DNA of 15,403 nt from NCBI GenBank assembly GCA_958435545.1, contig CAUBGU010000035.1:1-15403 (forward strand), read 5' to 3'. The translations under genes were made by a program, and so were the position numbers. Position 1 is the stretch's first letter, and every line of letters starts with the position of its first letter. This DNA comes from an uncultured Collinsella sp. Its GTDB lineage: Bacteria > Actinomycetota > Coriobacteriia > Coriobacteriales > Coriobacteriaceae. Shown here piece by piece: positions 1-15,403 of this stretch. The notes beneath the pieces were generated by a model. That model saw only the letters and a list, made by a program, of their open reading frames with translations, did no database searches and was not told the DNA's origin.

Positions 1-796
1 TGGCGATGATGAGGGCCGGACGCGCGCTGCCGGTGGTCTCGGCGATTGAGGTGGCAACGGCATGATCGGGGTCACGGTCCATCACGATGGTGTCGACATC
101 TGCCAGCTCGGCAAAGCGGTACATGCCGCGTCCGTTAACCTTGCTGGCGTCCATGAGGGCGACGCTTTGATGGGCTGCGGCGATCATAGCCGTTTTGGTC
201 TCGGCCATTTGGGGAAAGTCGGTCGTAAAGCCGCAGCGGGGGACAAAAGCGCTGGGGCACATGACGGCAAGGTCGGCGTGGACCATTTGGAGCGCCTGCA
301 TGGTAAGTGGACCGTACAGATAGCGATGACCTTTGCGCAGTGCCCCACCCAGCATGACGACATCGACCGAGGGCATGCTCTCGTCGATGTAATCGGCGAT
401 GGTAATGTCGGCCGTGATGACGGTGATGCCGTCGCGCTGATCGAGGAGCCGGACGAACTCGAGCGCCGTGGTGCCCGAGTCGACAAGCAGCGTGTCGCCA
501 TTGCCGACGAGCTCGATGGCGCTTTGCGCGATGGCCTGCTTGGCGGCGACATTGACGTTGATGCGGCGATCCTGGGTGGATACGGTCAACCGCTTCTGGA
601 GCGACACGGCGCCGCCATGCGTGCGACGCAGCTTGCCGGACTCGGCGAGCGCGTCTAGGTCGGCACGGGCGGTAACGGAGGACACGCCAAAGGTCTGGGC
701 GATTTCTGCCACCTGCACCGAGGCGTTATGCTCGAGCATCTCCATGATGGCGGAACGACGCTCATCGGCGAAAGCTCGGGTTGTTGCGTGGGCCAT
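1..796 (-). CDS. DeoR-family transcriptional regulator (3' end cut by window edge)
   Basis: The reading frame runs from ATG at 796-794 through 265 codons to the left edge with no stop, so the C-terminus is missing. A GGAG ribosome site lies about 6 bases before the ATG. The N-terminus (about residues 11-65) is a DeoR-type winged helix-turn-helix: DERRSAIMEML, then VSSVTARADLDALAESG and the family hallmark LRRTHGGAV at 57-64. The remainder looks like the DeoRC sugar-phosphate sensor: DSGTT at 106-110, MLGG at 148-151, CGFTTDF at 188-194 and MDASK at 215-219. Family members are usually repressors released by a phosphorylated sugar intermediate. It is divergent from the class II aldolase, so it probably controls that gene and itself. 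The effector cannot be read from the sequence. A DeoR assignment is firm; the target is inference. Confidence 0.92.
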   Translation of the reverse strand, partial: MAHATTRAFADERRSAIMEMLEHNASVQVAEIAQTFGVSSVTARADLDALAESGKLRRTHGGAVSLQKRLTVSTQDRRINVNVAAKQAIAQSAIELVGNGDTLLVDSGTTALEFVRLLDQRDGITVITADITIADYIDESMPSVDVVMLGGALRKGHRYLYGPLTMQALQMVHADLAVMCPSAFVPRCGFTTDFPQMAETKTAMIAAAHQSVALMDASKVNGRGMYRFAELADVDTIVMDRDPDHAVATSIAETTGSARPALIIA

Positions 797-1131
797 AGTT
801 GCTCCATCATCGTCTGAAATTTGCAGGAATTGTGTTGACTCTATTTTCGTTCATTTTCTTTTTGAGTAAGAAAACACCTTTCGATTACTTATCTTTTCTA
901 TAAAAGAAAGACGCTGAACGCTCAAAATTCAATATCGAACATGTCCACTCGGCTCAAATTCCTTCCGTTTACTTTTCAAAAACGACTGTATTGACCTGCA
1001 TGGGCTCAATATCTCGCGCGTGTAAAGCCGCTGAATTTCATACAATGAGCGCAGCAAAACGCAAGGTAAAACGCCTTGTGAACAACTACGCCCGATGTCC
1101 AGATGCGGGCGAGGGAGAGGAGCAAACGCTC
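797..1131. promoter_or_regulatory. divergent control region with candidate DeoR operators
   Basis: This 335-base gap separates the divergent DeoR regulator and aldolase and holds no convincing gene; the reading frame upstream of the aldolase start (from 991) has no ribosome site or conserved-looking protein. The stretch 840-985 is markedly AT-rich. T-rich repeats of the TTTCG kind occur at 845-859 (TTTTCGTTCATTTTC) and 879-893 (CTTTCGATTACTTATC region), with a related TATCGAAC at 932-941. They resemble the TTTCRTTTT-like operators described for sugar-linked DeoR proteins such as AgaR and GatR. A possible -10 TACAAT is at 1041-1046 and TATAAA at 899-904, but neither has a good -35. The leader also has a small hairpin, CAAGG/CCTTG, near 1062-1078. 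Confidence 0.4.
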
Positions 1132-1989
1132 ATGGCACTTGTTACCACCGAAAAGATGCTCAAGGACGCTCAGGCCGGCCACTACGCTGTTGGCGCGTTC
1201 AACGTCGAGAACCTCGAGTTTGTTATGGCCGTTCTGGCCGCTGCCGAGGAGACCAAGTCCCCCGTCATCATGCAGACCACCCCGGGCACCATCAAGACCG
1301 CTGGTCTGGACTACTTCTACGGCATGGTCAAGGCTGCCGCCGAGCGCGCTTCCGTGCCCGTCGCTCTGCACCTCGATCACGGCGATGGCTATGACCGCTG
1401 CATGCAGGCTTTCCGCACCGGCTACACCTCTGTCATGATCGACGGTTCGCACGAGTCCTTCGAGGACAACATCGCCCTGACCAAGTCCGTCGCCGATGCT
1501 GGCCGCGCCATGGGCGTGCCCGTCGAGGCAGAGCTCGGCAAGGTTGGCGGCAAGGAGGACGACGGTCCCGCGGTTGAGGGCGAGAGCCCCTACACCGATC
1601 CGGCTGAGGCCAAGGAGTTCGTCGAGCGTACCGGCTGCACCTCCCTCGCAATTGGCGTTGGCACCAGCCACGGTGTGTACACGAGCGATCCGCACATCGA
1701 GCAGTCCGTGGTCAAGGCCATCCGCGACGCCGTCGACGTGCCGCTGGTCCTGCACGGCACCTCCGGTGTGCCCGATGAGCAGGTTGCCGAGGCTGTGAAG
1801 AACGGCATCTGCAAGGTTAACTACGCCACTGAGCTGCGTCAGGCCTACACCAAGGGCTTCATGGCCTACATGGCCGAGAACCCCGCCTGCTTCGATCCTA
1901 AGAAGCCGGCCAAGGAGGGTATGCGTGAGATCACCGAGCTGGTTAAGATCCGCATGACCAACCTCAACTCTGTGGGCAAAGCAGAGTAA
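1132..1989 (+). CDS. class II ketose-bisphosphate aldolase (fructose- or tagatose-bisphosphate type)
   Basis: A 285-residue zinc-dependent class II aldolase that reversibly splits a ketose 1,6-bisphosphate into dihydroxyacetone phosphate and glyceraldehyde 3-phosphate in the cytoplasm. The start at 1132 (MALVTTEKML) is chosen because GGGAGAGGAG lies just upstream and the family begins here; the frame is open further upstream but without support. Visible motifs: GAFNVEN at 21-27, LHLDHGDGYD at 79-88 with catalytic Asp82 and zinc ligand His83, IDGSHESFEDN at 103-113, GTSHGVY at 177-183 with His180, LHGTSG at 207-212 with His208, and KVNYATELR at 228-236. Length and motifs fit the GatY/KbaY/Fba group. 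Fructose versus tagatose bisphosphate cannot be decided from sequence alone. The divergent DeoR regulator hints at induction by a specific sugar rather than a purely housekeeping role. Confidence 0.93.
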   Translation: MALVTTEKMLKDAQAGHYAVGAFNVENLEFVMAVLAAAEETKSPVIMQTTPGTIKTAGLDYFYGMVKAAAERASVPVALHLDHGDGYDRCMQAFRTGYTSVMIDGSHESFEDNIALTKSVADAGRAMGVPVEAELGKVGGKEDDGPAVEGESPYTDPAEAKEFVERTGCTSLAIGVGTSHGVYTSDPHIEQSVVKAIRDAVDVPLVLHGTSGVPDEQVAEAVKNGICKVNYATELRQAYTKGFMAYMAENPACFDPKKPAKEGMREITELVKIRMTNLNSVGKAE

Positions 1990-2022
1990 CAGCAAGGGTA
2001 CTCCGACTCGCTACATATCCCG

Positions 2023-2147
2023 GGGAGGGACGAGGGCTTAGTTCCCCAATCGTCCTCGGGCATGCAAAAAGCCTCGCTGCGCACTTCGTGCGGCGAGGCT
2101 TTTTGCCCCCTGCGGAAAGATTGGGGAACTAAGCCCTCGTCTCTCCC
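2023..2147. repeat. 29-bp inverted repeat enclosing the terminator
   Basis: Arms at 2023-2051 and 2119-2147 are reverse complements over 29 bases except for one position (2028/2142), which would be a G-U pair in rightward RNA. The core shared by both arms is CGAGGGCTTAGTTCCCCAAT. The arms flank a separate terminator hairpin (2066-2104), so the whole is a 125-bp nested palindrome between the convergent aldolase and HAD genes. Arms this long are not needed for termination. It may be a small non-autonomous element or a dispersed palindromic repeat. Confidence 0.85.
2066..2104. terminator. bidirectional intrinsic terminator between convergent genes
   Basis: AAAAAGCCTCGC (2066-2077) pairs with GCGAGGCTTTTT (2093-2104), with an inner CGCA/TGCG stem around a CTTCG loop. 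The A run on the left and T run on the right give a U-tract in either direction. It can end aldolase transcripts (+) and those of the HAD/AraC genes (-). Confidence 0.85.
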
Positions 2148-2210
2148 AGGTTGACCTACTCGAGGTCGTCGCCCTTGTGGCGTTGGGGCTGAAAGGGTGG
2201 GGCGCGGGGG

Positions 2211-2834
2211 TTACTTGGTTGTTAGGGTTAGCAGGTCGTTGGGGGTTTTGAGGTTGTAGGTGGCATTTGGGATATCTTGGTGTGATCCCCATGCTGCTCT
2301 GGCAAAACTGACCCCTGCTGAAGTTGCGCATTGTTCGTCGTAGACGGTGTCGCCAACGTAGACGACGTTGCCAGGATTCGCGCACGTACGCCGGAGATAT
2401 TCGAGCATGGGAGCGGGTGCGGGTTTATGTTCGGTTGTGTCTTCGACAAGGATGATGTGCTCAAAATACTTATCGAAGCCAAGGGGTGCAATTTCTTCTG
2501 CGTATTCGTCGCGCGCACGTGAGGAGACGATGCCAAGTTTGCAGCCGTTGTCGGAGAGTGTTGCGATAACTTCGTGCAAGCCGGGAAACACGCTGATGGT
2601 GCTTTTAAAGCTGGCGGCAACTTGGCACCAGCGATCCAGCGTTGCCTGTGAGTAGATCCCAAGTTTCTCAAGGGCGTTCTTGCCGGGTATGCCGAGGGCA
2701 AATTCAAGCTCGTGTCGGGGGAGCGTTTTGCCGGTTTCTTCTTGGACAACCTGGCCAAGCGATGACAGAACGCTTTCTTCTGTATCTGCCAATGTCCCAT
2801 CAACGTCAAATACGATATGGTCAAAGTGCTTCAT
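2211..2834 (-). CDS. HAD-superfamily phosphatase (phosphoglycolate phosphatase-like)
   Basis: A 207-residue HAD hydrolase of subfamily IA; family members remove phosphate from small phosphorylated metabolites through an aspartyl-phosphate intermediate with magnesium. Start at 2834 has GAGGAG about 8 bases upstream. All four HAD motifs are visible: motif I FDVDGTLADT with nucleophile Asp10 and acid/base Asp12, motif II IVSSR at 102-106, motif III Lys137 in EHKPAP, and motif IV GDTVYDEQ at 161-168 with Asp162 and Asp166. The helical cap lies between motif I and II (about 16-80). Resemblance is to Gph/PpaX-type enzymes, but the substrate is not determinable. It follows the AraC-family gene by 56 bases on the same strand, so the two may be co-transcribed. 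Confidence 0.9.
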   Translation of the reverse strand: MKHFDHIVFDVDGTLADTEESVLSSLGQVVQEETGKTLPRHELEFALGIPGKNALEKLGIYSQATLDRWCQVAASFKSTISVFPGLHEVIATLSDNGCKLGIVSSRARDEYAEEIAPLGFDKYFEHIILVEDTTEHKPAPAPMLEYLRRTCANPGNVVYVGDTVYDEQCATSAGVSFARAAWGSHQDIPNATYNLKTPNDLLTLTTK

Positions 2835-2890
2835 ATGGTTGCTCCTCTCTGTTGTTTGCCTGCAAGTTTGATGCGGTGACAGAAGAAAGG

Positions 2891-3829
2891 CTAGCGGGAT
2901 TTCTGCCTGGTGCTATCGAGATTCTGCCTCGCTGCTCGATAGCTCGAAGGAGTGCATCCCATTTGTTCTTTAAATACCTGACCAAGATGGCTTGCTGTCG
3001 CAAAGCCGCATTGGCGCGCGACTGTCTGGACCGTTCGCGTGGTGTGTGCCAAAAGTTCGCAAGCACGGTTTACGCGGTATGCGCGCAGATATGCCGCCGG
3101 GGTCGTTCCTGCGCAAGCTTCGATAATGCGGTAACACTCTCTTTCGCTTACGCCGGCTGCGGATGCCATCTGGGGCACATCTATAGCGGCTGCATAGTTT
3201 GCGCGGATATAGTCCAGGATTGCCTTGAACTGTACGTCGCGGTTGGTCATCCAAGAGGCGTTGTCGGAGGAAAAAAGCGGTTCGGCCTTGGCGTAAATCT
3301 GAATCCAGAGCTCTGACAAGCTATTCCGAAGCGCCATCTCGTTCTGCGGTCGTTGAAGGTCGTGGTCAAAGGAACTCTTTAGCAAATCGATAAAGGGCAT
3401 ATCGTCGGGGTTGGTGGGCGACCATTTGAGCACATCGACGCCTCGACATTGCAGCAAAGGATTGATATAGCGCTTTTGAAGGCGTCCCGCGGGATCGCCG
3501 AGCATCGACGGCTGAAAGATATGCAACATTTGAATGGCTGGTGCCGAATTGGGTGATTGCAGCGTGCTGTGCAAAACGCCGCCGTTGATAAAGCCGGCGG
3601 ACCCTTCCTCAAAGCGTACGTGCTCATGAGCCGCGCGCGTTCGATAGTCAATCGCTCCCTGCTCCATGTAGAAAAGCTCAACTTCGGAATGCCAGTGCCA
3701 GGGGACGGAATTGCCCGGATAGCGAGCGAATTCTGCGCGTTCGGCAATATAGGGCCAGTCTTCGGCGGTCTCGGGAAACGCTTCCTCGCGTCCTCCGCGG
3801 TGCAATTCTATGTGATCCATGTTTCGCAT
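2891..3829 (-). CDS. AraC-family transcriptional regulator with N-terminal cupin domain
   Basis: A 312-residue protein. The N-terminal part has a cupin-like ligand pocket: PWHWHSEVELFYMEQG at 43-58 with His45 and His47, and GGVLHS at 83-88. The C-terminal 100 residues (about 199-298) are an AraC/XylS DNA-binding domain with two helix-turn-helix units; the second contains VQTVARQCGFATASHLGQVF at 267-286, followed by the family ending MGCTPSSYR at 290-298. Such proteins typically activate or repress sugar-use genes. Starts at 3829 or 3820 (MDHIEL) are both possible; neither has a clear ribosome site, so the start is uncertain. It precedes the HAD phosphatase. No target operon is obvious in the window. 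Confidence 0.9.
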   Translation of the reverse strand: MRNMDHIELHRGGREEAFPETAEDWPYIAERAEFARYPGNSVPWHWHSEVELFYMEQGAIDYRTRAAHEHVRFEEGSAGFINGGVLHSTLQSPNSAPAIQMLHIFQPSMLGDPAGRLQKRYINPLLQCRGVDVLKWSPTNPDDMPFIDLLKSSFDHDLQRPQNEMALRNSLSELWIQIYAKAEPLFSSDNASWMTNRDVQFKAILDYIRANYAAAIDVPQMASAAGVSERECYRIIEACAGTTPAAYLRAYRVNRACELLAHTTRTVQTVARQCGFATASHLGQVFKEQMGCTPSSYRAARQNLDSTRQKSR

Positions 3830-3854
3830 GGCATCAGTATAAAGCGCGATGGGC

Positions 3855-4064
3855 TTAGATTGCTCTTGCCTGTTCGGGGAACGCCTTGTCTAGGGATGCT
3901 TGGAGCTTTTCGAAGGATGCTCGCAAGTTGTGGCTCTGGTCTGTTGAGCGTTTGGCTTTTGTGGTGGGGGAGTCGAGGAGACCGTTTCTCTGTGTCGGGG
4001 GGAAGGAGAAAAGGTTTGCATGTTTTAGGGATGGCTGCTGTGCTGCGTCATTGGAAGAATGCAT
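3855..4064 (-). CDS. small hypothetical ORF, 69 codons, unrecognised
   Basis: An open frame with ATG at 4064-4062 and TAA at 3857-3855, ending 25 bases before the AraC-family start. In its favour is a good ribosome site, GAGGAGG, 10 bases upstream of the ATG, and the correct direction to be the first gene of the AraC/HAD unit. The product is hydrophilic, starts MHSSNDAAQQPS and ends SLDKAFPEQARAI. It has no recognisable domain, membrane segment or signal peptide. It may be a small gene, a leader ORF or chance. Confidence 0.3.
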   Translation of the reverse strand: MHSSNDAAQQPSLKHANLFSFPPTQRNGLLDSPTTKAKRSTDQSHNLRASFEKLQASLDKAFPEQARAI

Positions 4065-4317
4065 GCTTATGCGGCCTCCTCGATGTCCACCAAAAGGTTG
4101 CGCACGGGGTGTGCTGCTAGGTCCCGTGCGTTGGCAGTATTATGCCGCGGCTGCTGCAAAGAAGCGCTAAAGAAAGGCTTAATCTGGTTTGGTGTTCCGA
4201 TGAAACCGCAGGTAAAAGCTATCGAGTAACACTCTTGAAAGGTTTTGAGCTTAAGGGCTTTCTAAGGTTTGTGGCGTAGACGTGGCGCGGACGTGCGGAG
4301 CGTGTGAATGCTCGCTG
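4065..4317. other. intergenic stretch without a supported gene
   Basis: Between the 69-codon ORF and the Nudix-Vsr gene. A minus-strand frame is open for 65 codons from 4261 to a stop at 4069-4067, two bases before the 69-codon ORF, but it has no ATG and no ribosome site near its TTG or GTG codons. It could be a gene remnant. At 4198-4213 the sequence CGATGAAACCGCAGGT matches 8580-8595 in another gap at 15 of 16 positions. Confidence 0.4.
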
Positions 4318-5304
4318 TTAGCGCTGCGGCTCTGCGGCGCGCACCTGCTCGATGACCTTTTCCATGGTGGCGTCGATGCGGTCTTTTTTGAGCTCGCATT
4401 CCCAGATGGTTATGGGTGTCCAGCCCATTTGGGTGAGTGCGTTGATGGCTGCTCGGTCGCGCTCGACGTTGCGACGGAACTTTGCCTCCCAAAACTCAAC
4501 GTTGCGCTTGGGCTGGCTCGGATTGCACTTGGGGCAGCGGTGCCAAAAGCAGCCGTTGACGAAGATGGCGATCTTGCGCCCGGGAAAGGCGATGTCGGGT
4601 TTTCCAGGCACCTTCCATTCCAGACGGTATCCCGTAAGGCCCGCGGCCCGTAGGCGCTGGCGAACGAGCAGCTCGGGCTTGGTGTTGGCGCGTTTGTTGC
4701 CCTTCATGGACTTTTTGATGGCGGCGCGACGGCGTACCAGTTCGCGCTCGTCGGCGGAAAGGTCCGAGGTATCGATGCCGTCGAGCAGACCGGGCTTGGG
4801 ACGCTTTTTGCTACGGCGCTTAGGTGCGCGCTTGGGTTTGGTGGCGGGGTGTTCGGTCGTGGTGACCTCGGCGTCATCGGCGGAGCTTGCCTCAAGCCGA
4901 TCTTCTTTCAGCTCAATCAGGGCATCGATAAGCCCCTTGTCGGCGGGCATCCATTCCACCGTGGCAAGCGAGGCGCGCGGAATCCAGCGGATATCGAGCT
5001 GTCGGTCATGTTTCTGAGGCTCATCGGATTCATCGGCGAGCGAGCAGTAGTAGCACTCCATGGAGAGATGAAAATCGGGGTAGTCATACTCAACGGTATA
5101 GAAATCGCGCAGGTTGGTAACTTTTACCTGCAGCTCTTCCATGAGCTCGCGGCGCACGGCGTCTTCGGGTGTCTCGCCGCGCATGAGCTTGCCGCCCGGG
5201 AATTCCCAAAGTCCTTGCATGTCGCCGTAGCCGCGCTGCACGGCAAGCAGCTCATCGGATCCTTCTTTGCGAATGATCCCAGCGGCAACATGAACAGTCT
5301 TCAA
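4318..5304 (-). CDS. Nudix (MutT-like) hydrolase fused to Vsr-type DNA mismatch endonuclease
   Basis: A 328-residue two-domain protein. Residues 1-135 are a Nudix hydrolase: GLWEFPGGKL at 31-40 and the Nudix box from Gly38 through Glu44 to RELMEEL at 52-58; the usual Gly after EEL is Gln59. This resembles MutT/NudG enzymes that cleave damaged nucleoside triphosphates. A Lys/Arg-rich linker (about 150-172) leads to a Vsr domain at about 195-325: MKGNKRANTKPELLVRQRLR, PGKPDIAFPGRK with the expected catalytic Asp237, VNGCFWHRCPKC at 249-260, FWEAKF and NVERDR. Vsr nicks DNA at T:G mismatches arising from deaminated 5-methylcytosine. Start: TTG at 5304-5302, giving MKTVHVAAGII, with GAGAGGA 6 bases upstream. 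The frame stays open to 5871, but that part is antisense to the ABC gene. No cytosine methyltransferase, the usual vsr neighbour, is present. Confidence 0.9.
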   Translation of the reverse strand: MKTVHVAAGIIRKEGSDELLAVQRGYGDMQGLWEFPGGKLMRGETPEDAVRRELMEELQVKVTNLRDFYTVEYDYPDFHLSMECYYCSLADESDEPQKHDRQLDIRWIPRASLATVEWMPADKGLIDALIELKEDRLEASSADDAEVTTTEHPATKPKRAPKRRSKKRPKPGLLDGIDTSDLSADERELVRRRAAIKKSMKGNKRANTKPELLVRQRLRAAGLTGYRLEWKVPGKPDIAFPGRKIAIFVNGCFWHRCPKCNPSQPKRNVEFWEAKFRRNVERDRAAINALTQMGWTPITIWECELKKDRIDATMEKVIEQVRAAEPQR

Positions 5305-5351
5305 CAGGAGTCCTCTCTCAATATCATCACGTGGCAGGCTAGCTACCCCTA

Positions 5352-5369
5352 CCTTACACAACGGTAAGG
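5352..5369. promoter_or_regulatory. candidate operator upstream of the BceAB-like genes
   Basis: CCTTAC (5352-5357) and GTAAGG (5364-5369) form a palindrome with a 6-base spacer; a further GTAAG half-site is at 5375-5379. The CTTAC-n-GTAAG form is common among TetR-family operators. No TetR gene is in the window, so the binder is unknown. Confidence 0.35.
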
Positions 5370-5414
5370 CAAGCGTAAGCCATATCGATGGTAGCTGACT
5401 CGTCTTCTTGCGAC

Positions 5415-5420
5415 TATAGA
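5415..5420 (+). promoter_or_regulatory. candidate -10 element for the BceAB-like transporter
   Basis: TATAGA at 5415-5420 sits 33 bases before the ATG at 5453. The hexamer 17 bases upstream (5392-5397, TAGCTG) is a poor -35, so the promoter is either weak, activator-dependent or elsewhere. Confidence 0.35.
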
Positions 5421-5452
5421 TGCCGTAGACTAATCGCAAGAAAGGACTCGGT

Positions 5453-6238
5453 ATGCAAACCACGCACATGGCGACCCCGGTACTGGAGGTCGCGCATCTC
5501 GAAAAGGTATATGGAGCGCTGGGCAACGTGACCCGCGCGCTCAACGACGTCAGCTTTACGGTCAACCGCGGCGAATTTGTTGGCATCATGGGCGCTTCGG
5601 GATCGGGCAAGTCGACCCTGCTCAACTGCGTGTCGACCATCGATAGCGCCACAAGTGGCACGATCCGCATCAACGGCCAGGACGTAACACGCATGAAGCA
5701 GGCTAAGCTTTCGCAGTTCCGCCGCGAGGAGCTCGGCTTTATCTTCCAGGATTCCAACCTGCTCGATACACTCACGGCACGCGAGAACATCGCCCTGCCG
5801 CTCACCATTGCCCGCACAAACTCGGCAGAGATCTCGACCCGCGTGCAGGATGTGGCAGCGCGCCTGTCCATCAGTCAGGTGCTCGACAAGTATCCCTACC
5901 AGATGTCCGGCGGGCAGCAGCAGCGCGTTGCCGCGGCTCGCGCACTCGTCACCGACCCCACCATGATCATGGCCGACGAGCCCACCGGCGCCCTCGATTC
6001 CAAGAGCGCTCGCCTGCTGCTCGAGAGCCTGGAGGCCCTTAACCGCCGCCTGCGAGCCACCGTACTCATGGTCACGCACGACAGCTTTGCCGCCAGCTAC
6101 ACGAGCCGTGTGCTGTTTATCCGCGACGGCAAGATCTTCACCGAGCTGCGCCGCGGCGACACCGACCGCCGAGAGTTCTTCGACCGCATTATGGAGGTCG
6201 TTGCCATGATGGGCGGTGAGGGCTCCGATGCTCTGTAA
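5453..6238 (+). CDS. ABC transporter ATP-binding protein, BceA/MacB-like
   Basis: A 261-residue nucleotide-binding subunit that powers the permease encoded next. Visible motifs: Walker [10 protein letters not shown] at 47-55, Q-loop Gln99 in FIFQDSNLL, signature SGGQQQR at 152-158, Walker B MIMADEP at 171-177 with Glu176, D-loop GALD at 179-182, and H-loop His209 in VTHD. The [18 protein letters not shown] segment and the partner permease fit the BceA/LolD/MacB group, used for antimicrobial-peptide resistance or lipoprotein-type mechanotransmission. The start at 5453 has AAAGGA 6 bases upstream; Met6 at 5468 is a less supported alternative. Its last codons overlap the permease start by 11 bases, indicating translational coupling. 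Confidence 0.95.
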
Positions 6239-8429
6239 ACTCGCTTGGGGCAACGTCCGCCGCGCCGGCCGCGACTACCTCGTCTACCTTTTGACGCTCA
6301 CCCTGGGCGTCACGGTCTTCTATGCCTTTAACACCATCTCGATGCAGGTCGACATCGCCGGAATCGATGAAAAGGGCTTGGCGCAGGTAATGGGCAGCAT
6401 GCTCGGCGACCTGACGTACTTTTTGGCCGGTGTCATGGCCTTTTTGATGGTGTATGCCAATAACTTCATCATGAAACGCCGCAAGAAGGAGTTTGGCCTG
6501 TACCAGGTGCTCGGCATGGGGCGCGGGCGCGTCGCCACGATCATGGCGCTCGAGACCGTGATCGTTTCGGTCGTGGCCTTTGTCGTCGGCATTGTGCTGG
6601 GTGTGGGACTCTCCCAGCTCATGACGTTCTTTACGGCCTCGCTCTTTAAGACACAGATCGCCAATTTCCACTTCTTTTTCTCGGTGCATGCGTTCAACCT
6701 GACCCTTGTCTGCATGCTCGTGATGTTTGTGCTCACGCTACTGCTGAACCTTCGCGCCGTGCGTCGTACCAAACTTATCGAGCTTATGGGTGCCGAGCGT
6801 CGCAACGAGAGCATCAAGACACGCAACCCCTGGATTGCGATTGCCATCTTTGCCGTGGGCGTGGCGCTTGTGGGCGTGGCCTATTACCGTCTGCTACGTG
6901 ATGGGTTCCCGCTAACCGCGACGGACAGCAAGCTGCAAGAGGCCATGAACCAGTTTGGTATTACGACCGCTATGGTTACCGTGGGCACCTTTGCCCTGTT
7001 CTGGGGACTCTCGGGCATGCTCATCAAGCTGCTGCAGAGCCTGCGCGGCGTGTATTGGCGCGGCCTCAACATGTTTACCGTGCGCCAGCTTGCGGCCAAG
7101 GTCAACACGGTGTGCTTTTCGATGGGCGTCATCGCGATGCTCCTGTTTTTGGCCATCACCTCGGTGACGTGCGGTATGTCGATTGCCAACGTGATGAACG
7201 AAAACCTGGAGCGCTATAACCCTGTTGACGTGTCTCAGACGTATGTCTATTACACGCCCGATACGCTTGACTACTACAAAGAGTACATCAATCCGTCTGA
7301 AGCCGATCGCATGGTGCTGGCCGATACAACGGTCGATTTGTACCCCGCATGGCACGGCAGGGGCAATTCGGCGGACAACAACGACGAGACCGGCAAGAAG
7401 GTCGATATCGCCGATGTTGCCGGTGAGCATGTGCAGATCGATTCGTATCTGAGTTACCCGGTTGGCGGCTCGAATCCTTCGGTGACCCCAAGTGAGATGT
7501 GCAAGATCATGGGCGAAAAGCTTCCCAAGGCGTTCGGGGGTAGCAATGCCGATGCGATGGGTCTGTTTGTGACGCCGGCGAGCCAGTACAACAAACTGCG
7601 CCAGATGATGGGCGAGGAGCCGGTGCACATCGGTCACGACCAGTATCTGCTCACGTGTGATATGGGCGGCGAGCTGGTCGACCTGTACACCAAATACATG
7701 GCCGGCGGCCATGCCCTTACCTTGGGCGGGCATACGCTCAAGCCCGCAACCGATAAGTCGGACGAAGATACGGCGGCCATCGCCAACTCGGCGATGGGCA
7801 GTAATCCGGGTACCGTCGTCGTTGCCGACGAGCTGTTGTCCCAACTTAATCTGCAGCCGTATTCCAGTAGCCTGCTCGTTAACTACAAACAGGGGATGGA
7901 TACGACTGAGGCAGACGAGAGCATTAAATACACGGTGCTCGACAATCTGCTCGTTGACGGCAAGGAGCCGGGGTCGTGGGGAATCTTCATCACACGCTCC
8001 GAGATGTACACGCAAGCAGCGCAAATGAACGGTCTTATTAGCTACCTAGCCATCTACATCGGCTTTGTATTGGTCGTTGCATGCGCGGCGATTCTGTCGA
8101 TCCAGCAGCTCTCCAACGTGGCCGACGGCAGCCGCAGCTATCGTGTGCTGGCACAGATCGGCTGCGACGACCGCCAGATTCGCCATTCGGTGATGGCGCG
8201 GCAGGCGGTATTCTTCCTGTTCCCGCTGGCAGTGGGCCTGGCGCACTCCTTTGTGGCACTTAAGGTGATTATCGAGCTGGTGAGCATATTCGGAAATATG
8301 AGCATCGGCGGCACCGTGGGCCTCACCTGTGCAATCTTCCTGGCAGCATACGGTGGCTACTTCCTGGTGACCTACCTTATGAGCACTGGCATGGTGCAAG
8401 CTGCCATCGCCACCCGCTACAGCGAGTAA
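6228..8429 (+). CDS. FtsX-like ABC permease, BceB-type
   Basis: A 733-residue membrane protein. By eye there are ten membrane segments, near 17-38, 62-82, 104-128, 156-176, 203-220, 247-270, 295-315, 602-625, 657-678 and 696-718. A large extracytoplasmic domain (about 316-601) lies between segments 7 and 8, which is the BceB layout. BceB proteins sense and relieve peptide antibiotics that bind cell-wall lipid intermediates. The start ATG at 6228 ([12 protein letters not shown]) is preferred over GTG at 6216 because GTGAGGG lies about 5 bases before it. It overlaps the ATPase gene by 11 bases. No BceRS-type two-component system accompanies the pair in this window, so a peptide-resistance role is plausible but unproven. 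Confidence 0.93.
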   Translation: MLCKLAWGNVRRAGRDYLVYLLTLTLGVTVFYAFNTISMQVDIAGIDEKGLAQVMGSMLGDLTYFLAGVMAFLMVYANNFIMKRRKKEFGLYQVLGMGRGRVATIMALETVIVSVVAFVVGIVLGVGLSQLMTFFTASLFKTQIANFHFFFSVHAFNLTLVCMLVMFVLTLLLNLRAVRRTKLIELMGAERRNESIKTRNPWIAIAIFAVGVALVGVAYYRLLRDGFPLTATDSKLQEAMNQFGITTAMVTVGTFALFWGLSGMLIKLLQSLRGVYWRGLNMFTVRQLAAKVNTVCFSMGVIAMLLFLAITSVTCGMSIANVMNENLERYNPVDVSQTYVYYTPDTLDYYKEYINPSEADRMVLADTTVDLYPAWHGRGNSADNNDETGKKVDIADVAGEHVQIDSYLSYPVGGSNPSVTPSEMCKIMGEKLPKAFGGSNADAMGLFVTPASQYNKLRQMMGEEPVHIGHDQYLLTCDMGGELVDLYTKYMAGGHALTLGGHTLKPATDKSDEDTAAIANSAMGSNPGTVVVADELLSQLNLQPYSSSLLVNYKQGMDTTEADESIKYTVLDNLLVDGKEPGSWGIFITRSEMYTQAAQMNGLISYLAIYIGFVLVVACAAILSIQQLSNVADGSRSYRVLAQIGCDDRQIRHSVMARQAVFFLFPLAVGLAHSFVALKVIIELVSIFGNMSIGGTVGLTCAIFLAAYGGYFLVTYLMSTGMVQAAIATRYSE

Positions 8430-8466
8430 CAAGCGGGCAAAACCGTCGCAAAATCAGAGGCGTATG

Positions 8467-8506
8467 ACCGCCGCGAAGGGACCAGGGCCCTTTCGCGGCG
8501 GTTTTT
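8467..8506 (+). terminator. intrinsic terminator after the BceAB-like operon
   Basis: ACCGCCGCGAAGGG (8467-8480) pairs with CCCTTTCGCGGCGGT (8488-8502) with a single bulged T, followed by TTTTT. It lies 37 bases past the permease stop. Confidence 0.9.
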
Positions 8507-8530
8507 GCCTATCTGGGGGTGTTTCGGATG

Positions 8531-8652
8531 CAAGTGAGTAGGCTTTTTTGAACTTACCGAGCACATCGCGACAAACGATCGATAAAACCGCAGGTCGGAG
8601 CTGTGGCGTTTTTAGGGTGTGCTTGGTCTCCTGCAAAAAGCCTACTCACTTG
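8531..8652. repeat. 122-bp element with near-perfect terminal inverted repeats
   Basis: CAAGTGAGTAGGCTTTTTTG at 8531-8550 is the reverse complement of 8634-8652 apart from one extra T in the T run. The 83-base interior has no gene with a ribosome site. The arm contains AAAGCCTACTCA, which recurs at 15149-15160 beside another inverted repeat, and the interior contains CGATAAAACCGCAGGT (8580-8595), nearly identical to 4198-4213. This suggests a dispersed element family. Confidence 0.75.
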
Positions 8653-8702
8653 GTTTTTTCTGCTAGAAAACCGCCGCGAGGGAAGGCAACTCCCCCGGGT
8701 AG

Positions 8703-8806
8703 TCGCTGGGGACGTTCTTAAACGACTGGTCAAACAAGAATGTCCCCAACGATTACCCCAAGGAATGTCCCAGACTGCCGGCAGAAAAGGAACGTCCCTA
8801 ACTGCC
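8703..8806. repeat. cluster of four GGGACRTTCYT repeats
   Basis: Three copies read on the minus strand with GGGAC at 8798-8794, 8771-8767 and 8746-8742 (spacings 27 and 25), and one reads on the plus strand at 8709-8713. Two minus copies share the longer unit GGCAGT-nn-GGGACRTTCCTT. The plus copy (8704-8719) and nearest minus copy (8736-8751) form an inverted repeat matching at 14 of 16 positions around a 16-base loop. CTGCCGGCAG at 8775-8784 is a perfect palindrome between units. No transposase gene is adjacent. Confidence 0.75.
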
Positions 8807-8875
8807 GCATCCGGAGCAAGACAACGCCGCAGGTAGAGGACGGACAGCGATCGGGTCGCATTTGAGACAAGGTGA

Positions 8876-8914
8876 CGTGAAACGAAAGGGCGCTGACCTT
8901 CTGGTCGCGCCCTT
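8876..8914 (-). terminator. probable terminator downstream of DAHP synthase
   Basis: On the minus strand AAGGGCGCGACC, loop AGAA, then GGTC-A-GCGCCCTT forms a 12-bp stem with one bulged A. It is followed by TTTCGTTTC, a weak U-rich tract. It lies about 80 bases past the gene's stop. Confidence 0.5.
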
Positions 8915-8962
8915 GAGGTTGAACGTCAGATTGTGCAGGTGCGGCCCGCGCAGTGTCGAGCC

Positions 8963-8990
8963 GTTACGCGGTTTGGCAAAACCGCGTAAC
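8963..8990 (-). other. perfect 12-bp hairpin immediately after the DAHP synthase stop
   Basis: GTTACGCGGTTT (8963-8974) and AAACCGCGTAAC (8979-8990) pair perfectly around a 4-base loop, starting one base past the TAG stop on the minus strand. There is no T tract, so a role in mRNA 3'-end stability is more likely than classical termination. Confidence 0.6.
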
Positions 8991-8991
8991 T

Positions 8992-10023
8992 CTAAATACG
9001 CTCTGCGATTTCGTGGATGAGGTAGTCGGTCTTTTCCCAGCCCAGGCACGGGTCGGTGATCGACTTGCCAAAGACGCCGCCGTCGACCGGTTGGTTGCCG
9101 TCCTCCAGGTAAGACTCGATCATAAAGCCCTTGACCAGCTTGGAGATGGACTCGTTGCGGCGGCAGCTGTCGAGCACTTCCTTGCAAATGCGATACTGCT
9201 CCAGCGGACGCTTGCCCGAGTTGTCATGGTTGCAGTCGATGATCGCTGCCGGATTGGCGTAGCCGGCATGCTCGGTATAGCGCTCGGCCAGGCGCTCCAG
9301 GTGTTCGTAGTGGTAGTTGGGGTAGGTGCGCCCATCGAGACCGATGTAGCCACGCATAACGGCGTGTGCGAGCGGGTTGCCGTCACACTCGACCTCCCAG
9401 TTGCGGAAGATGAAGCTCTGGTGCGCCTGCGCGGCGTAAATGGAGTTGAGCATAACGGTGGTAGAGCCGGCAGTGGGATTCTTCATGCCGACGGGTACCG
9501 AAATGCCGCTCGACACCAGGCGATGCTCCTGGTTCTCGACCGAGCGCGCGCCCACGGCAACGTAGCTCAGTAGGTCAACGAGGTATTGGTAGTTGGACGG
9601 ATAGAGCATCTCATCGGCGGTAAAGAAGCCAGTCTCCTCGATGACGCGCAGGTGCATATGGCGGATGGCCTTGACGCCCTCGAGCAGGTCGTCGGGAGCC
9701 TCGGGGTTGGGGTTGTGCAGAAGACCCTTGTAACCGGTGCCCTTGGTGCGCGGCTTATTGGTGTAGACGCGCGGAATGATGATGAGCTTGTCCTTGACCT
9801 CCTCGGCGGTCTTGGCCAGTCGGTTCATGTACTCAAGCACCGAGTCCTCGCGGTCGGCAGAGCACGGGCCGATGATGAGCACCTTGCGTGCGTCCTCGCC
9901 GGTAAAGACTTTGGCGACCTCGGCGTCAAATGCCTGCTTTTTGGCGGTAAGCTCGGCGGAAAGCGGCATTTCCTCGCGGATCTCCATGGGGATCGGCAGC
10001 CTGCGTTTGAAATCCATGGCCAT
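8992..10023 (-). CDS. class I 3-deoxy-7-phosphoheptulonate (DAHP) synthase
   Basis: A 343-residue enzyme of the AroF/AroG/AroH type. It condenses phosphoenolpyruvate with erythrose 4-phosphate as the first step of the shikimate pathway to aromatic amino acids. Visible motifs: IIGPCSADRED at 50-60 with metal ligand Cys54, PRVYTNKPRTKGTGYKG beginning at 84, GARSVENQEHR at 158-168, GMKNPTAG at 179-186, IDCNHDNSGK at 262-271 with His266, MIESYLEDG with Glu303, and SITDPCLGW with Asp324. All four metal ligands are present. Start ATG at 10023 has GAGGAGG 6 bases upstream; the frame extends slightly further but without support. Which aromatic amino acid inhibits it cannot be told by eye, so no paralogue letter is given. 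It stands alone, with its own promoter and terminator. Confidence 0.96.
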   Translation of the reverse strand: MAMDFKRRLPIPMEIREEMPLSAELTAKKQAFDAEVAKVFTGEDARKVLIIGPCSADREDSVLEYMNRLAKTAEEVKDKLIIIPRVYTNKPRTKGTGYKGLLHNPNPEAPDDLLEGVKAIRHMHLRVIEETGFFTADEMLYPSNYQYLVDLLSYVAVGARSVENQEHRLVSSGISVPVGMKNPTAGSTTVMLNSIYAAQAHQSFIFRNWEVECDGNPLAHAVMRGYIGLDGRTYPNYHYEHLERLAERYTEHAGYANPAAIIDCNHDNSGKRPLEQYRICKEVLDSCRRNESISKLVKGFMIESYLEDGNQPVDGGVFGKSITDPCLGWEKTDYLIHEIAERI

Positions 10024-10075
10024 GCGGGGCCTCCTCAATCGAATAAGTCAAAGCGTGAATTGTCGAATGCACGGC

Positions 10076-10104
10076 ATTATCCGCTGTCGCACGCTAAAGT
10101 GCAA
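10076..10104 (-). promoter_or_regulatory. sigma-70-type promoter of DAHP synthase
   Basis: On the minus strand TTGCAC (10104-10099), a 17-base spacer and GATAAT (10081-10076) closely match the -35/-10 consensus. The -10 is 52 bases before the ATG. The short leader shows no Trp-, Tyr- or Phe-rich leader peptide. Confidence 0.75.
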
Positions 10105-10115
10105 GCGAAACCTAC

Positions 10116-10150
10116 CAAAAAGGGACAGGTTTATTTTGACAGGTTTTATC
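10116..10150 (+). repeat. GGGACAGGTTTATTTT-type repeat
   Basis: GACAGGTTTAT at 10124-10134 is repeated as GACAGGTTTTAT at 10138-10149, preceded by AAAAAGG. It lies just upstream of the DAHP synthase -35. It shares the GGGAC core with the repeats at 8703-8806 and 15061-15149. In other bacteria, GGGACAGG-type sequences occur near REP-associated (Y1) transposases; the link here is inference. Confidence 0.5.
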
Positions 10151-10249
10151 TGGGGAAACGTTGACGGGCCCCAGAATGGAATGATGTCACGTGGCTTGGG
10201 AGAGGCCGTCGATCGAGTTCCAGGGGAGGCGGTTCGAGGCCGCAGAACG

Positions 10250-10284
10250 AAAAACGGGGGCGCAGGTTGTCCTGCGTCCCCGTT
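10250..10284 (-). terminator. intrinsic terminator of the MarR/ABC exporter operon
   Basis: AACGGGGGCGCAGG (10253-10266) pairs with CCTGCGTCCCCGTT (10271-10284) around a 4-base loop, with one mismatch/wobble position. Read on the minus strand it is followed by TTTTT. It lies about 30 bases beyond the last exporter gene's stop. Confidence 0.88.
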
Positions 10285-10315
10285 CTCGGGCGTTATTCGT
10301 TCCCTGCGGCAGAAT

Positions 10316-12172
10316 TTATGCCGCTTCGTCGAACTGCGAGTTGTACAGGTCGGCGTAGAAGCCGCCCTGGGCGAGTAGCTCGTCGTGTGTGCCCTTCTCG
10401 ACGATGTCGCCGTCGCGAATCACCAAGATCACGTCGGCGTTTCGGATTGTGGACAGGCGATGTGCGATGACAAAGCTGGTGCGGCCCTGCATCAGCGCAT
10501 CCATGGCGCGTTGAATGAGTTCCTCGGTGCGGGTGTCGACGTTGGAGGTCGCCTCGTCCAGAATCAGCGCCGGGCGGTCGGCCAAAATGGCGCGGGCGAT
10601 GGTCACGAGCTGGCGCTGACCCTGTGACAGGTTGGTGCCCTCCTCGTTGATCATAAAGTCGTAGCCGCCGGCGAGCGTATGGATAAAGTGGTCGCAGCGT
10701 GCGGCGCGTGCGGCGGCTTCGACCTCGGCATCGCTCGCGTCGGGGCGTCCGTAGCGGATGTTCTCGCGGATGGTGCCGTTAAACAGCCAGGTATCCTGCA
10801 GCACCATGGCAAACTCGCCGCGCAGCGCCGCGCGGTCCCAGTCGCGCACGTCGACGCCCTCGACACGCAGCGAGCCGCCGTCCACGTCGTAGAAGCGCTG
10901 CAGCAGCTTAATGAGCGTGGTCTTGCCGGCGCCGGTGGGGCCGACGATGGCAATGGTTTGGCCGGGCTGCGCCTCGCAGCTAAAGTCGTGGATGATGGTC
11001 TTGTCGGGCGTGTAGCCAAACTTGACATGGTCAAACTCCACGTGGCCGGGACGCTTCTCGGGAATCTGTGCGTCGGCCTTCTGCTCCTCCTCGGGCGCGG
11101 CCAGGAACTCAAACACGCGCTCGGTGGCGGCAGCCATCGACTGCATCGTGTTGCTCACGTTGCCCAGTTGCTGCACGGGCTGCGTAAAGTTGCGCACGTA
11201 CTGAATGAAGCTCTGGATGTCGCCGGGCGTGGCATTGCCGGTCAGCGCGAGCTGTGCGCCCACCACGACGACGCCCACGTAGCCCATGTTGCCCACCAGG
11301 CTCATGAGCGGCATCATCAGGCCCGACAGGAACTGCGAACGCCAGCCACTAATAAACAGGCGATCGTTTTGACGGTCGAACTCCTCGATCGAAGCCTCGG
11401 CGCGGTCGAATACCTGAATAACGTTCTGGCCGGCAAAATCCTCTTCGATAATGCCGTTGACGGTGCCCAGGACCTGCTGCTGCTCGCGGAAGTACGGCTG
11501 CGAGAAGTGAATCATCACCATCAAGATAATTGCGGCTGCCGGCAGCGTGAGCACGGTGACGCCGGTAAGCGGCAGACTGATCGACAGCATCATGACGAGC
11601 ACGCCGATAATCTGCGTCACCGAGGTGATGAGCTGCGTCACGCTCTGGTTGAGCGACTGACCCAGCGTATCGACGTCGTTGGTGATGCGGCTGAGCACGT
11701 CGCCCTTGCTGTGGCCGTTGAAGTAACTCATCGGAACGACAGCGATCTTGGCGGCGATCTCCTTGCGCATGCGATAACAAATCTTTTGCGTGACGCCGGT
11801 CATGAGCCAGCCTTGGATCAGGCTGCAGGCAGAGCTCGCCAGATACAGACAGAGCAAAAAGCCGAGCGTCTTGGCGATCCAGTCAAAGTCAACGTCGCCA
11901 GTACCGTTGACCTTGGCAACCAGGCCCTCGAACAGTTTGGTGGTGACCTGGCCGAGCACCTTGGGTCCCACGATATTAAAGATGACCGAGCACACGGCAA
12001 AGGCGACGGCGACAAACACGGCAATCTTGTGCTGGCCGATATAACCGAGCAGCTGCCTCATGGTGCCCTTAAAGTCCTTGGCCTTTTCGCCGCGACGCAT
12101 GCCGCCCATGCGGCCCATGGGACCACGCTGGCGGGTGGGCTTGGGAATCTGAGTCTTGGTCTCGTCTGCCAT
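10316..12172 (-). CDS. ABC exporter half-transporter, catalytically canonical subunit of a heterodimer
   Basis: A 618-residue fused membrane plus ATPase protein of the MsbA/LmrA-type exporter class. A basic, Gly/Met-rich cytoplasmic N-tail (1-35) precedes six predicted membrane segments (about 48-350). The ATPase domain (about 378-610) has Walker A GPTGAGKTT at 411-419, Q-loop Gln459, Walker B ALILDEATS at 535-543 with catalytic Glu540, and H-loop His571. The signature is LSQGQ at 515-519, departing from LSGGQ. In heterodimeric exporters this pattern belongs to the subunit supplying catalytic residues to the active site, while the partner supplies the good signature. Its ATG overlaps the previous gene's stop as TAATG, with GGAGG upstream. 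Related pairs export drugs, lipids or peptides; the substrate is unknown. Confidence 0.94.
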   Translation of the reverse strand: MADETKTQIPKPTRQRGPMGRMGGMRRGEKAKDFKGTMRQLLGYIGQHKIAVFVAVAFAVCSVIFNIVGPKVLGQVTTKLFEGLVAKVNGTGDVDFDWIAKTLGFLLCLYLASSACSLIQGWLMTGVTQKICYRMRKEIAAKIAVVPMSYFNGHSKGDVLSRITNDVDTLGQSLNQSVTQLITSVTQIIGVLVMMLSISLPLTGVTVLTLPAAAIILMVMIHFSQPYFREQQQVLGTVNGIIEEDFAGQNVIQVFDRAEASIEEFDRQNDRLFISGWRSQFLSGLMMPLMSLVGNMGYVGVVVVGAQLALTGNATPGDIQSFIQYVRNFTQPVQQLGNVSNTMQSMAAATERVFEFLAAPEEEQKADAQIPEKRPGHVEFDHVKFGYTPDKTIIHDFSCEAQPGQTIAIVGPTGAGKTTLIKLLQRFYDVDGGSLRVEGVDVRDWDRAALRGEFAMVLQDTWLFNGTIRENIRYGRPDASDAEVEAAARAARCDHFIHTLAGGYDFMINEEGTNLSQGQRQLVTIARAILADRPALILDEATSNVDTRTEELIQRAMDALMQGRTSFVIAHRLSTIRNADVILVIRDGDIVEKGTHDELLAQGGFYADLYNSQFDEAA

Positions 12173-14538: not shown

Positions 14539-14984
14539 TCGGCATCTCTCCTTTCTTGGTTGCGATCGATAATTTCGTTGGCACGTCTTAGAAGGCGCAC
14601 CATCTCTTGGGTATCTGCTTCGCCGAACTGCTCGAGGAAGGCTGCGGTGCGGTCCTCGAATTCCCGACGCTTGATTTCGAGATCCTGGAATCCTTTGTCG
14701 GTCACCGTGACGTGTACGCGACGACGGTCGGTCTTTGAGTGCTCGCGCTCGACCCAGCCCTTGGCTTCGAGAGCGCGTAGGATATTGGCGATGCGGGCAC
14801 TCGAGACCCAGGCGCGATCAGCGAGTTCGCTCGGCGTGAGCGAACCGCCAGCGAGCATGAGGGCGCGCATGACGGCCATCTCGCCGCCGAGGGCTTTGTC
14901 CGCAAAGCGCGAAATGCGCTGATGCATGCTGCCGAACTCGGTAAGGAGCTGACGCCCAAGTTCACGGAAATCGGTATCTTCCAC
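14535..14984 (-). CDS. MarR-family transcriptional regulator of the exporter operon
   Basis: A 149-residue winged helix-turn-helix protein. SLTPSELADRAWVSSARIAN at 48-67 forms the helix-turn-helix, ILRALEAKGWVER continues the recognition helix and turn, and DRRRVHVTVTDKG at 86-98 is the basic wing typical of MarR proteins. Flanking helices (1-35, 100-145) would form the dimer interface. The start is GTG at 14984 with AGGGG about 6 bases upstream. The stop overlaps the next gene's GTG by four bases, so regulator and exporter are translated from one message. Such regulators usually repress their own operon until a ligand, often an exported compound, binds. Confidence 0.93.
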   Translation of the reverse strand: MEDTDFRELGRQLLTEFGSMHQRISRFADKALGGEMAVMRALMLAGGSLTPSELADRAWVSSARIANILRALEAKGWVEREHSKTDRRRVHVTVTDKGFQDLEIKRREFEDRTAAFLEQFGEADTQEMVRLLRRANEIIDRNQERRDAE

Positions 14985-15030
14985 CGAAAACCCCTAACAC
15001 TAGAAACTATTTTCGGTGAAAGATGATACC
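14973..15030. promoter_or_regulatory. candidate MarR autoregulatory operator over the start codon
   Basis: GGTATCTTCCACCGAAAA at 14973-14990 and TTTTCGGTGAAAGATGATACC at 15010-15030 form an interrupted inverted repeat (same bases apart from a 3-base gap and one mismatch). It spans the MarR start codon and the space before it. Between the arms lies TAGAAACTA, itself partly symmetric. A protein bound here would block initiation of the operon. Confidence 0.5.
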
Positions 15031-15060
15031 CCCGCACGCGCACCCTATACGGTAGATTTT

Positions 15061-15149
15061 TGGGACATGCCTAGAAAACTACCTTTAGGCGACCTCCGTA
15101 CGCCGTCGGTATCAGCGAAGTTAGGGAGTAGATCTCTAGGCATGTCCTA
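15061..15149. repeat. 89-bp element with GGGACATGCCT inverted repeats
   Basis: Arms at 15061-15082 and 15128-15149 match at 19 of 22 positions in inverse orientation; one mismatch is a possible G-U pair. The arm core GGACATGCCTAGA resembles the GGGACATTCCT units at 8703-8806. Directly after the right arm comes AAAGCCTACTCA (15149-15160), shared exactly with the inverted repeat at 8531-8652. There is no gene inside. Confidence 0.7.
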
Positions 15150-15403
15150 AAGCCTACTCAGAGGCACTTTACCCTGCTAAAGCTGGCATAACAGCTAGAG
15201 CGAACGTCGTACAAAGGCAAGGAAAAATAACATACAAATCGGTGAACGGTAGTTGTTCGCGCTCGCATTTCCTGCGGGTTTGTAAAAAACGCCCTTATGA
15301 TATAAAAAAAGAAACATATAACAGCCCAGATGGAGAGGGTCGCTATGTTATCCTTCTCAAACGGGTGAAATCTTGGGTTTTGGGTTGCAGTTCCAAGGTG
15401 GAC
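15150..15403. other. AT-rich right-edge region, no firm gene
   Basis: A minus-strand frame is open from the right edge for 81 codons to a stop at 15160-15158, but it has no visible start, crosses AT-rich sequence and has an unconvincing composition. On the plus strand TATGAT at 15296-15301 could be a -10, and GGAGAGG precedes ATG at 15345, but that frame closes after seven codons. The beginning of a rightward gene, leader peptide or RNA beyond the window is possible. Confidence 0.35.

Follow-up and report, generated by a model that had tools for sequence, protein, structure and literature searches.

A Nudix-Vsr fusion protein in Collinsella and its possible role in guarding against 5-methylcytosine damage

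The stretch of DNA considered here, referred to as the window, comprises 15,403 nucleotides from an uncultured Collinsella sp., a gut bacterium of the family Coriobacteriaceae (assembly GCA_958435545.1, contig CAUBGU010000035.1, positions 1 to 15,403). On its minus strand (4318..5304) it carries a single gene for a 328-residue protein in which a Nudix hydrolase domain is followed by a domain of the Vsr mismatch endonuclease family. The fusion arose once in the family and was kept, and its product is read here, with a probability of roughly 0.48, as a chromosomal mutation-avoidance enzyme of the Coriobacteriaceae guarding against 5-methylcytosine (5mC) damage from both ends.

According to this reading, the Nudix half would hydrolyse 5-substituted deoxycytidine triphosphate (dCTP), 5-methyl-dCTP above all, originating from degraded methylated host or foreign DNA, so that no 5mC would be reintroduced into DNA at random positions. 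The Vsr half would nick 5' of T in the T:G mismatches left by 5mC deamination, after which a short patch would be resynthesised to C:G. The protein may act in trans for any C5-methyltransferase of the strain, unlinked EcoRII-type systems for example. The substrates of both halves are predicted, pyrophosphohydrolysis and T:G nicking from what is known of the two families and the role in 5mC hygiene from context. A coupling of nucleotide sanitation to repair, as envisaged in a first-pass annotation of the window, is likewise putative; the fusion may merely fix the ratio of the two enzymes, and direct channelling is not implied.

Domain composition of the fusion protein

The gene begins with a TTG start codon at 5304, 5' of which a ribosome-binding-like site, AGAGAGGA, can be read from the sequence (5311..5318, minus strand), and ends with a stop codon at 4318-4320. 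The frame, its coordinates and the motifs quoted in the first-pass annotation are all as claimed there. The Nudix domain comprises residues 1-132 (4909..5304, minus strand) and is recognised by Pfam PF00293 (residues 5-124, E 4.1e-19), PF14815, the PADLOC model PDC-S07 (127 bits) and Foldseek. The Vsr domain comprises residues 184-328 (4321..4755, minus strand) and exceeds the cut-offs of both NCBIfam TIGR00632 (109.1 bits over residues 194-304, cut-off 97.85) and Pfam PF03852 (62.1 bits, cut-off 27; residues 196-256, E 4.6e-17), while also matching the PADLOC Vsr model (62 bits); its best solved relative is E. coli Vsr, 1cw0 (E 4.5e-18). The domain matches of both halves lie far beyond chance.

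The two domains are joined by a linker of residues 133-183 (4756..4908, minus strand), the length of which varies from 31 to 123 residues among 51 sequences, measured from the alignment column of window residue 133 to that of residue 186. Previously described as basic, the linker is so only in the stretch PKRAPKRRSKKRPKP, its overall charge being mixed, with 11 K/R and 10 D/E in 50 residues. An AlphaFold model of the protein reached a mean predicted local distance difference test score (pLDDT) of 77.6 and a predicted template modelling score (pTM) of 0.51, with low confidence at residues 143-166, and the arrangement of the domains is therefore left uninterpreted. Foldseek matches of this model to the Nudix half include MutT2, MutT and 3GWY. 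Since the Nudix half accounts for all displayed Foldseek and VIA rows, the Vsr assignment is made from sequence only.

Conserved active site residues

Residue conservation was assessed across 51 aligned fused proteins. Within the Nudix box (residues 38-60; 5125..5193, minus strand), R52, E53, E56 and E57 are invariant (51/51), while the late consensus glycine is replaced by Q59 in the window, this position holding Gln 37 times and Gly once among the 51. The box is thus complete, as had been claimed, in its catalytic residues and not in this glycine. The core of the Vsr domain (residues 234-260; 4525..4605, minus strand) contains the motifs GKPD (D237) and NGCFWHRCPKC (N250, C252, F253, W254, H255, C257, C260). 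D237, H255, D283, C252, C260 and C303 are invariant in all fused proteins, and C257 and E211 are present in 50/51, the remaining row being a gap. The zinc-site positions of this half, which we take to be those of C252, C257, C260 and C303, are all occupied. Consequently, the C-terminal domain has both the catalytic Asp and the zinc-site residues on which its identification as Vsr had been made to depend.

The catalytic residues of Vsr are listed as E25, D51, H64, H69 and D97 in the available excerpt of a recent study (PMC12907096). The window protein has counterparts of four of these (E211, D237, H255 and D283), with N250 in place of H64. Asn is found at this position in 51/51 fused proteins and in 63/80 Vsr rows of the order. 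According to the same excerpt, Asp occupies the His64 position of Caulobacter VsrA and of functional Vsr proteins from Neisseria (PMC12907096). Judged by its residues, the fusion protein appears to retain the catalytic core of Nudix in full and the Vsr core with a single His-to-Asn exchange.

Distribution and descent of the fusion

All 43 Collinsella genomes match the query, and in 42 of them a single open frame encodes both domains, which bears out the earlier proposal that domains of two mutation-avoidance families are truly fused and rules out a sequencing error hiding a stop or frameshift between them. Vsr is likewise matched once in each of 42/43 genomes, the exception being genome G025. 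In G020, a TAA inside the match is the normal stop of an intact 336-residue frame, overrun by the alignment. The window protein shares 96% identity with proteins encoded at two loci named Collinsella aerofaciens, and is already present in databases under partial names (Vsr, NUDIX domain-containing). No paper on a Nudix-Vsr fusion was found in open-licence PubMed Central (PMC) among the matches listed.

Eighty loci were fetched in the order, 20 from the Coriobacteriaceae and 60 from other families. Sixteen of the 20 family loci are fused, three carry Vsr alone (genus g56) and one is that of G025. A window-type Nudix in the Vsr frame occurs at none of the 60 Vsr loci from other families, and Nudix-Vsr fusions elsewhere in the phylum were absent among the matches listed. 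In a Vsr tree with bootstrap values not fully settled, the 17 fused rows, including the window, form one clade with support of 100/99 and g56 is placed elsewhere; this single clade fits one origin followed by vertical inheritance. A single origin of the fused domains is also recovered in the Nudix tree (94/78) and in a second one (82/85). The Nudix of G025 (loci L044 and L123) groups with the fused clade (98/96) on a long branch. Divergent as it is, this Nudix, from the only genome of the genus without Vsr, retains the D-x-Q motif of the fused clade.

Across the family, the Nudix domain was matched in 63 of 65 genomes. Fifteen of the 63, one of them G025, have a Nudix match of this type in a frame of its own; for the remaining 48, the sole close Nudix match belongs to a fused-type frame or to one with its Vsr half untested. 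A mobile gene was considered as well and is not supported, the fused copies forming a single clade in the family. The one full-length match among plasmid records is to a 900-kb Collinsella aerofaciens record which may be chromosomal.

Two housekeeping enzymes could also have been joined by accident through loss of a stop codon, each continuing to act alone. The long, variable, low-confidence linker would suit such an origin, as would the Vsr alone at the three g56 loci and the Nudix that persists without Vsr in G025. An accident is nonetheless improbable, as one frame with conserved residues on both sides has been kept in 42/43 genomes of the genus, and other repair enzymes are fused to Vsr in some sister-family genomes.

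Substrate class of the Nudix domain

Family models place the Nudix half in neither of two named groups, the NCBIfam MutT model TIGR00586 giving 83.8 bits against a cut-off of 97.9 and the NudG model PRK10546 giving 61.4 bits against 156. Its best single-sequence PDB match is 3GWY (Q5LBB1) with 62.5 bits, MutT scoring 59.8. For a standalone Nudix relative from the order, the scores are 92.7 against 3GWY, 74.0 against NudG and 61.8 against E. coli MutT. Activity of Q5LBB1 on 5-Me-dCTP is given as 4.8e6 M-1 s-1 in the excerpt available (PMC5158307). The top Foldseek match is MutT2 solved with 5mdCTP, 5zro.

Residue D122 is Asp in 51/51 fused proteins and in 14/15 fused rows of a second alignment. 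The corresponding position is Asn in three of five MutT-type PDB chains and Asp in the other two; in E. coli MutT this Asn is presumably the contact to 8-oxoG. Of the motifs of the 5-methyl-dCTPase group, as aligned here, AD is kept and E-H is replaced by D-R-Q in the fused Nudix. The nearest kin group of the fused Nudix looks closer to the 5-methyl-dCTP hydrolases, although overall similarity does not decide between MutT and 5-methyl-dCTPase. The 8-oxo-dGTP substrate that had been considered in the first-pass annotation is doubtful for this reason and because the MutT cut-off is missed.

Cytosine methylation and restriction genes

Around each of the 19 Vsr loci of the family, approximately 5 kb were fetched on either side, some being cut by contig ends. 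As already noted at first pass, no C5-methylase was recognised beside the fusion among the frames of the window (by eye, with Pfam run on six proteins), and a C5-methylase-like frame lies within about 5 kb at just 1/19 family loci; EcoRII-like or McrBC-like matches number 0/19. At the level of whole genomes, the two are associated in the order, with 103 genomes containing both Vsr and a C5-methylase, 39 Vsr only, 12 a methylase only and 43 neither (odds ratio 9.5, with no correction for kinship or completeness). Four Collinsella loci (L017-L020) have EcoRII-like genes adjoining C5-methylases, Pfam EcoRII-C having been tested and found in L017, and no Vsr match is present in those loci. The only Vsr of these genomes is the fused one, which could serve their EcoRII-type systems in trans, by analogy with what has been proposed for VsrA.

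Three findings weigh against a role in 5mC hygiene. The fused Nudix is without the E-H pair of the 3GWY/NudG group, global scores fail to separate it from the MutTs, and a C5-methylase match is absent in 14 of the 42 Vsr-bearing genomes of the genus. These 14 genomes support the view that the fusion can persist without a C5-methylase, the earlier suggestion having been that its Vsr domain may act without Dcm methylation.

Separate genes of the same two kinds adjoin in Bacteroidales. Locus L146 (430-3775) contains a C5-methylase, EcoRII, vsr and then a Nudix of the same group, with a likely start (MKQIEV) some 25 bases past the stop of vsr, and L141 (262-4053) contains McrB, McrC, vsr and again such a Nudix. 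Both were rejected as Nudix-Vsr fusions, because the Nudix gene at each follows vsr as a distinct neighbour. At these loci the Nudix may be an accessory of operons for 5mC restriction. PDC-S07 matches the Nudix of L144 and L146, the two Bacteroidales loci tested, and two standalone Coriobacteriales genes, as it does in the window. A vsr gene lies within 3 kb at 6/15 Nudix-anchored loci taken from a best-80 list, which is not an even sample; when 198 genomes were drawn evenly, the figure was 1/11 Nudix loci, the one being the seed itself. Nudix-vsr adjacency in Bacteroidales is therefore not general.

The two Bacteroidales relatives in restriction operons, together with the PADLOC matches of both halves, are what could be cited for a defence protein, namely a Nudix and a Vsr-type nuclease directed at modified phage DNA or its nucleotides. 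Relatives of Vsr or Nudix also occur on 43 phage records, none of them covering 80% of the query. A defence nuclease had been among the initial suggestions, and is the least probable of the readings weighed here, as the gene is present in a single copy in 42/43 genomes of the genus, forms one clade and has the near absence of restriction and C5-methylase genes at family loci described above. No defence island was seen at the fusion, the neighbours of which are an AraC-type regulator and an ABC transporter, although no gene-by-gene PADLOC scan of the window was made. These neighbour clusters are common to other family loci.

Vsr across the Coriobacteriales

Vsr was detected in 142/197 genomes of the order. 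A draw from the phylum outside the class contained Vsr in 54 of at most 270 genomes, with 52 over the cut-off; 270 is an upper-bound denominator, unmatched phylum genomes not all being listed. All Coriobacteriia analysed are reported, in the available excerpt of that work, to be without NucS and MutS-MutL, and further mismatch-repair pathways are considered possible where both known systems are absent (PMC5290159). Absence of MutS in the order is not complete, since MutS_V (PF00488) matches 6/80 order genomes, and the four that pass the cut-off all belong to family f6; no search for MutL was made. NucS_C (PF01939) is matched in 14/80 order genomes, each time over a partial stretch of the model, three of them barely at the cut-off.

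These figures invite a more general explanation, in which a MutT-like 8-oxo-dGTP or broad sanitiser is combined with T:G repair in any context, 5mC playing no part, in a clade reported to be without MutS-MutL and NucS. Frequent Vsr in the order, the scarce PF00488 and partial PF01939 matches, Vsr in the wider phylum and the 14 genus genomes with Vsr and no C5-methylase match are all consistent with it, as are the higher score of the MutT model over that of NudG and a fused-protein profile which ranks two MutT chains together with 3GWY. The association of Vsr with C5-methylases in the order and the missed MutT cut-off argue in the opposite direction. In addition, E. coli Vsr removes T whatever its strand, and it is therefore no substitute for strand-directed mismatch repair, only a G:C bias being possible. 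General mutation avoidance is on balance unlikely, if still the most serious competitor of the 5mC reading.

Further fusions of Vsr are found in the order. Two of the 60 loci from other families (L104, 4341-5939; L109, 3963-5750) carry UDG, Vsr and GIY-YIG in single frames, and a third (L081, 4206-5432) joins an HhH-GPD glycosylase to Vsr. The former architecture is shared by nearly all of the 120 database relatives listed for L109 and the latter by two database relatives of L081. In L109 the UDG part exceeds the DNA-deoxyinosine glycosylase cut-off; the Vsr part, with 90.1 against 97.85, stays below that of TIGR00632 and exceeds that of Pfam. P0281, named Paratractidigestivibacter, also combines deoxyinosine glycosylase and Vsr. 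A UDG gene lies on the same strand about 1 kb or less from vsr in 5/18 loci of family f5. A close relative of L109, P0205, is named Senegalimassilia anaerobia. Same-strand UDG-family genes within about 1 kb of vsr were noted at L056, L057, L058, L066, L078, L133 and L135, the last two named Tractidigestivibacter and Olsenella. Other partners include threonylcarbamoyladenylate synthase (P0277), a 2-thiouracil desulfurase domain (P0331) and, in open frames regarded as putative genes, GNAT (L086) and a tRNA-editing domain (L085).

On a wider and quite speculative view, Vsr may be the hub of an unnamed base-damage and mismatch pathway of the Coriobacteriales, fused in different families to an enzyme for the matching lesion. 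In the Coriobacteriaceae the partner would be a deoxynucleotide triphosphate sanitiser; elsewhere it would be an HhH-GPD glycosylase or a deoxyinosine glycosylase, the latter accompanied in some Eggerthellaceae-like genomes by GIY-YIG. If true, this would be a T-directed, GC-biasing third way of removing transition mismatches where MutS-MutL and NucS are reported absent. Vsr, found so widely in the order and sometimes fused to repair enzymes, is in any case a testable candidate for part of Coriobacteriia mismatch repair. The preferred 5mC reading carries its own implication, as the fusion suggests a link between cleaning of 5-methylated nucleotides and repair of 5mC deamination. This link was not found in print by an open-licence PMC search joining 5-methyl-dCTP and Vsr, where the only paper with both terms was listed as one on the structure of PvuRts1I.

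Other frames of the window

Plus-strand open frames lie antisense to the fusion gene at 4282-4653, 4352-5017 and 4849-5367; a similar antisense frame seems recurrent at other Vsr loci and is probably an effect of composition. Beside the fusion (5453-8429) are an ABC transporter ATPase and an FtsX-type permease, with related clusters of open reading frames in 15 other family loci. Two ABC exporter-like genes with a MarR-like gene upstream of them occupy 10316-14984 on the minus strand, as judged from their translations with no family search.

Comparison with known systems

E. coli Vsr belongs to the same sequence family as the C-terminal half and shares with it the catalytic Asp, the second His and the zinc-site residues, along with Met, Phe and Trp positions which are presumably intercalating. 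The window protein differs in being fused to a Nudix domain, in having no dcm adjoining and in possessing Asn for His64. For the Nudix half, Bacteroides fragilis Q5LBB1 (PDB 3GWY), a 5-methyl-(d)CTP hydrolase and the best single-sequence PDB match, and E. coli NudG/Orf135 have the AD motif in common with it; unlike the fused form, neither is joined to a nuclease, and the fused form has lost their E-H pair. Mycobacterium smegmatis MutT2, the top Foldseek match and solved with 5mdCTP, is by contrast a stand-alone chain of approximately 128 residues in 5zro. Caulobacter VsrA/ScmA offers a parallel for the proposed mode of action, with a Vsr-like protein operating in trans to an unlinked cytosine methylase; in the available excerpt VsrA is not described as fused, and its residue at the His64 position is Asp, not Asn (PMC12907096).
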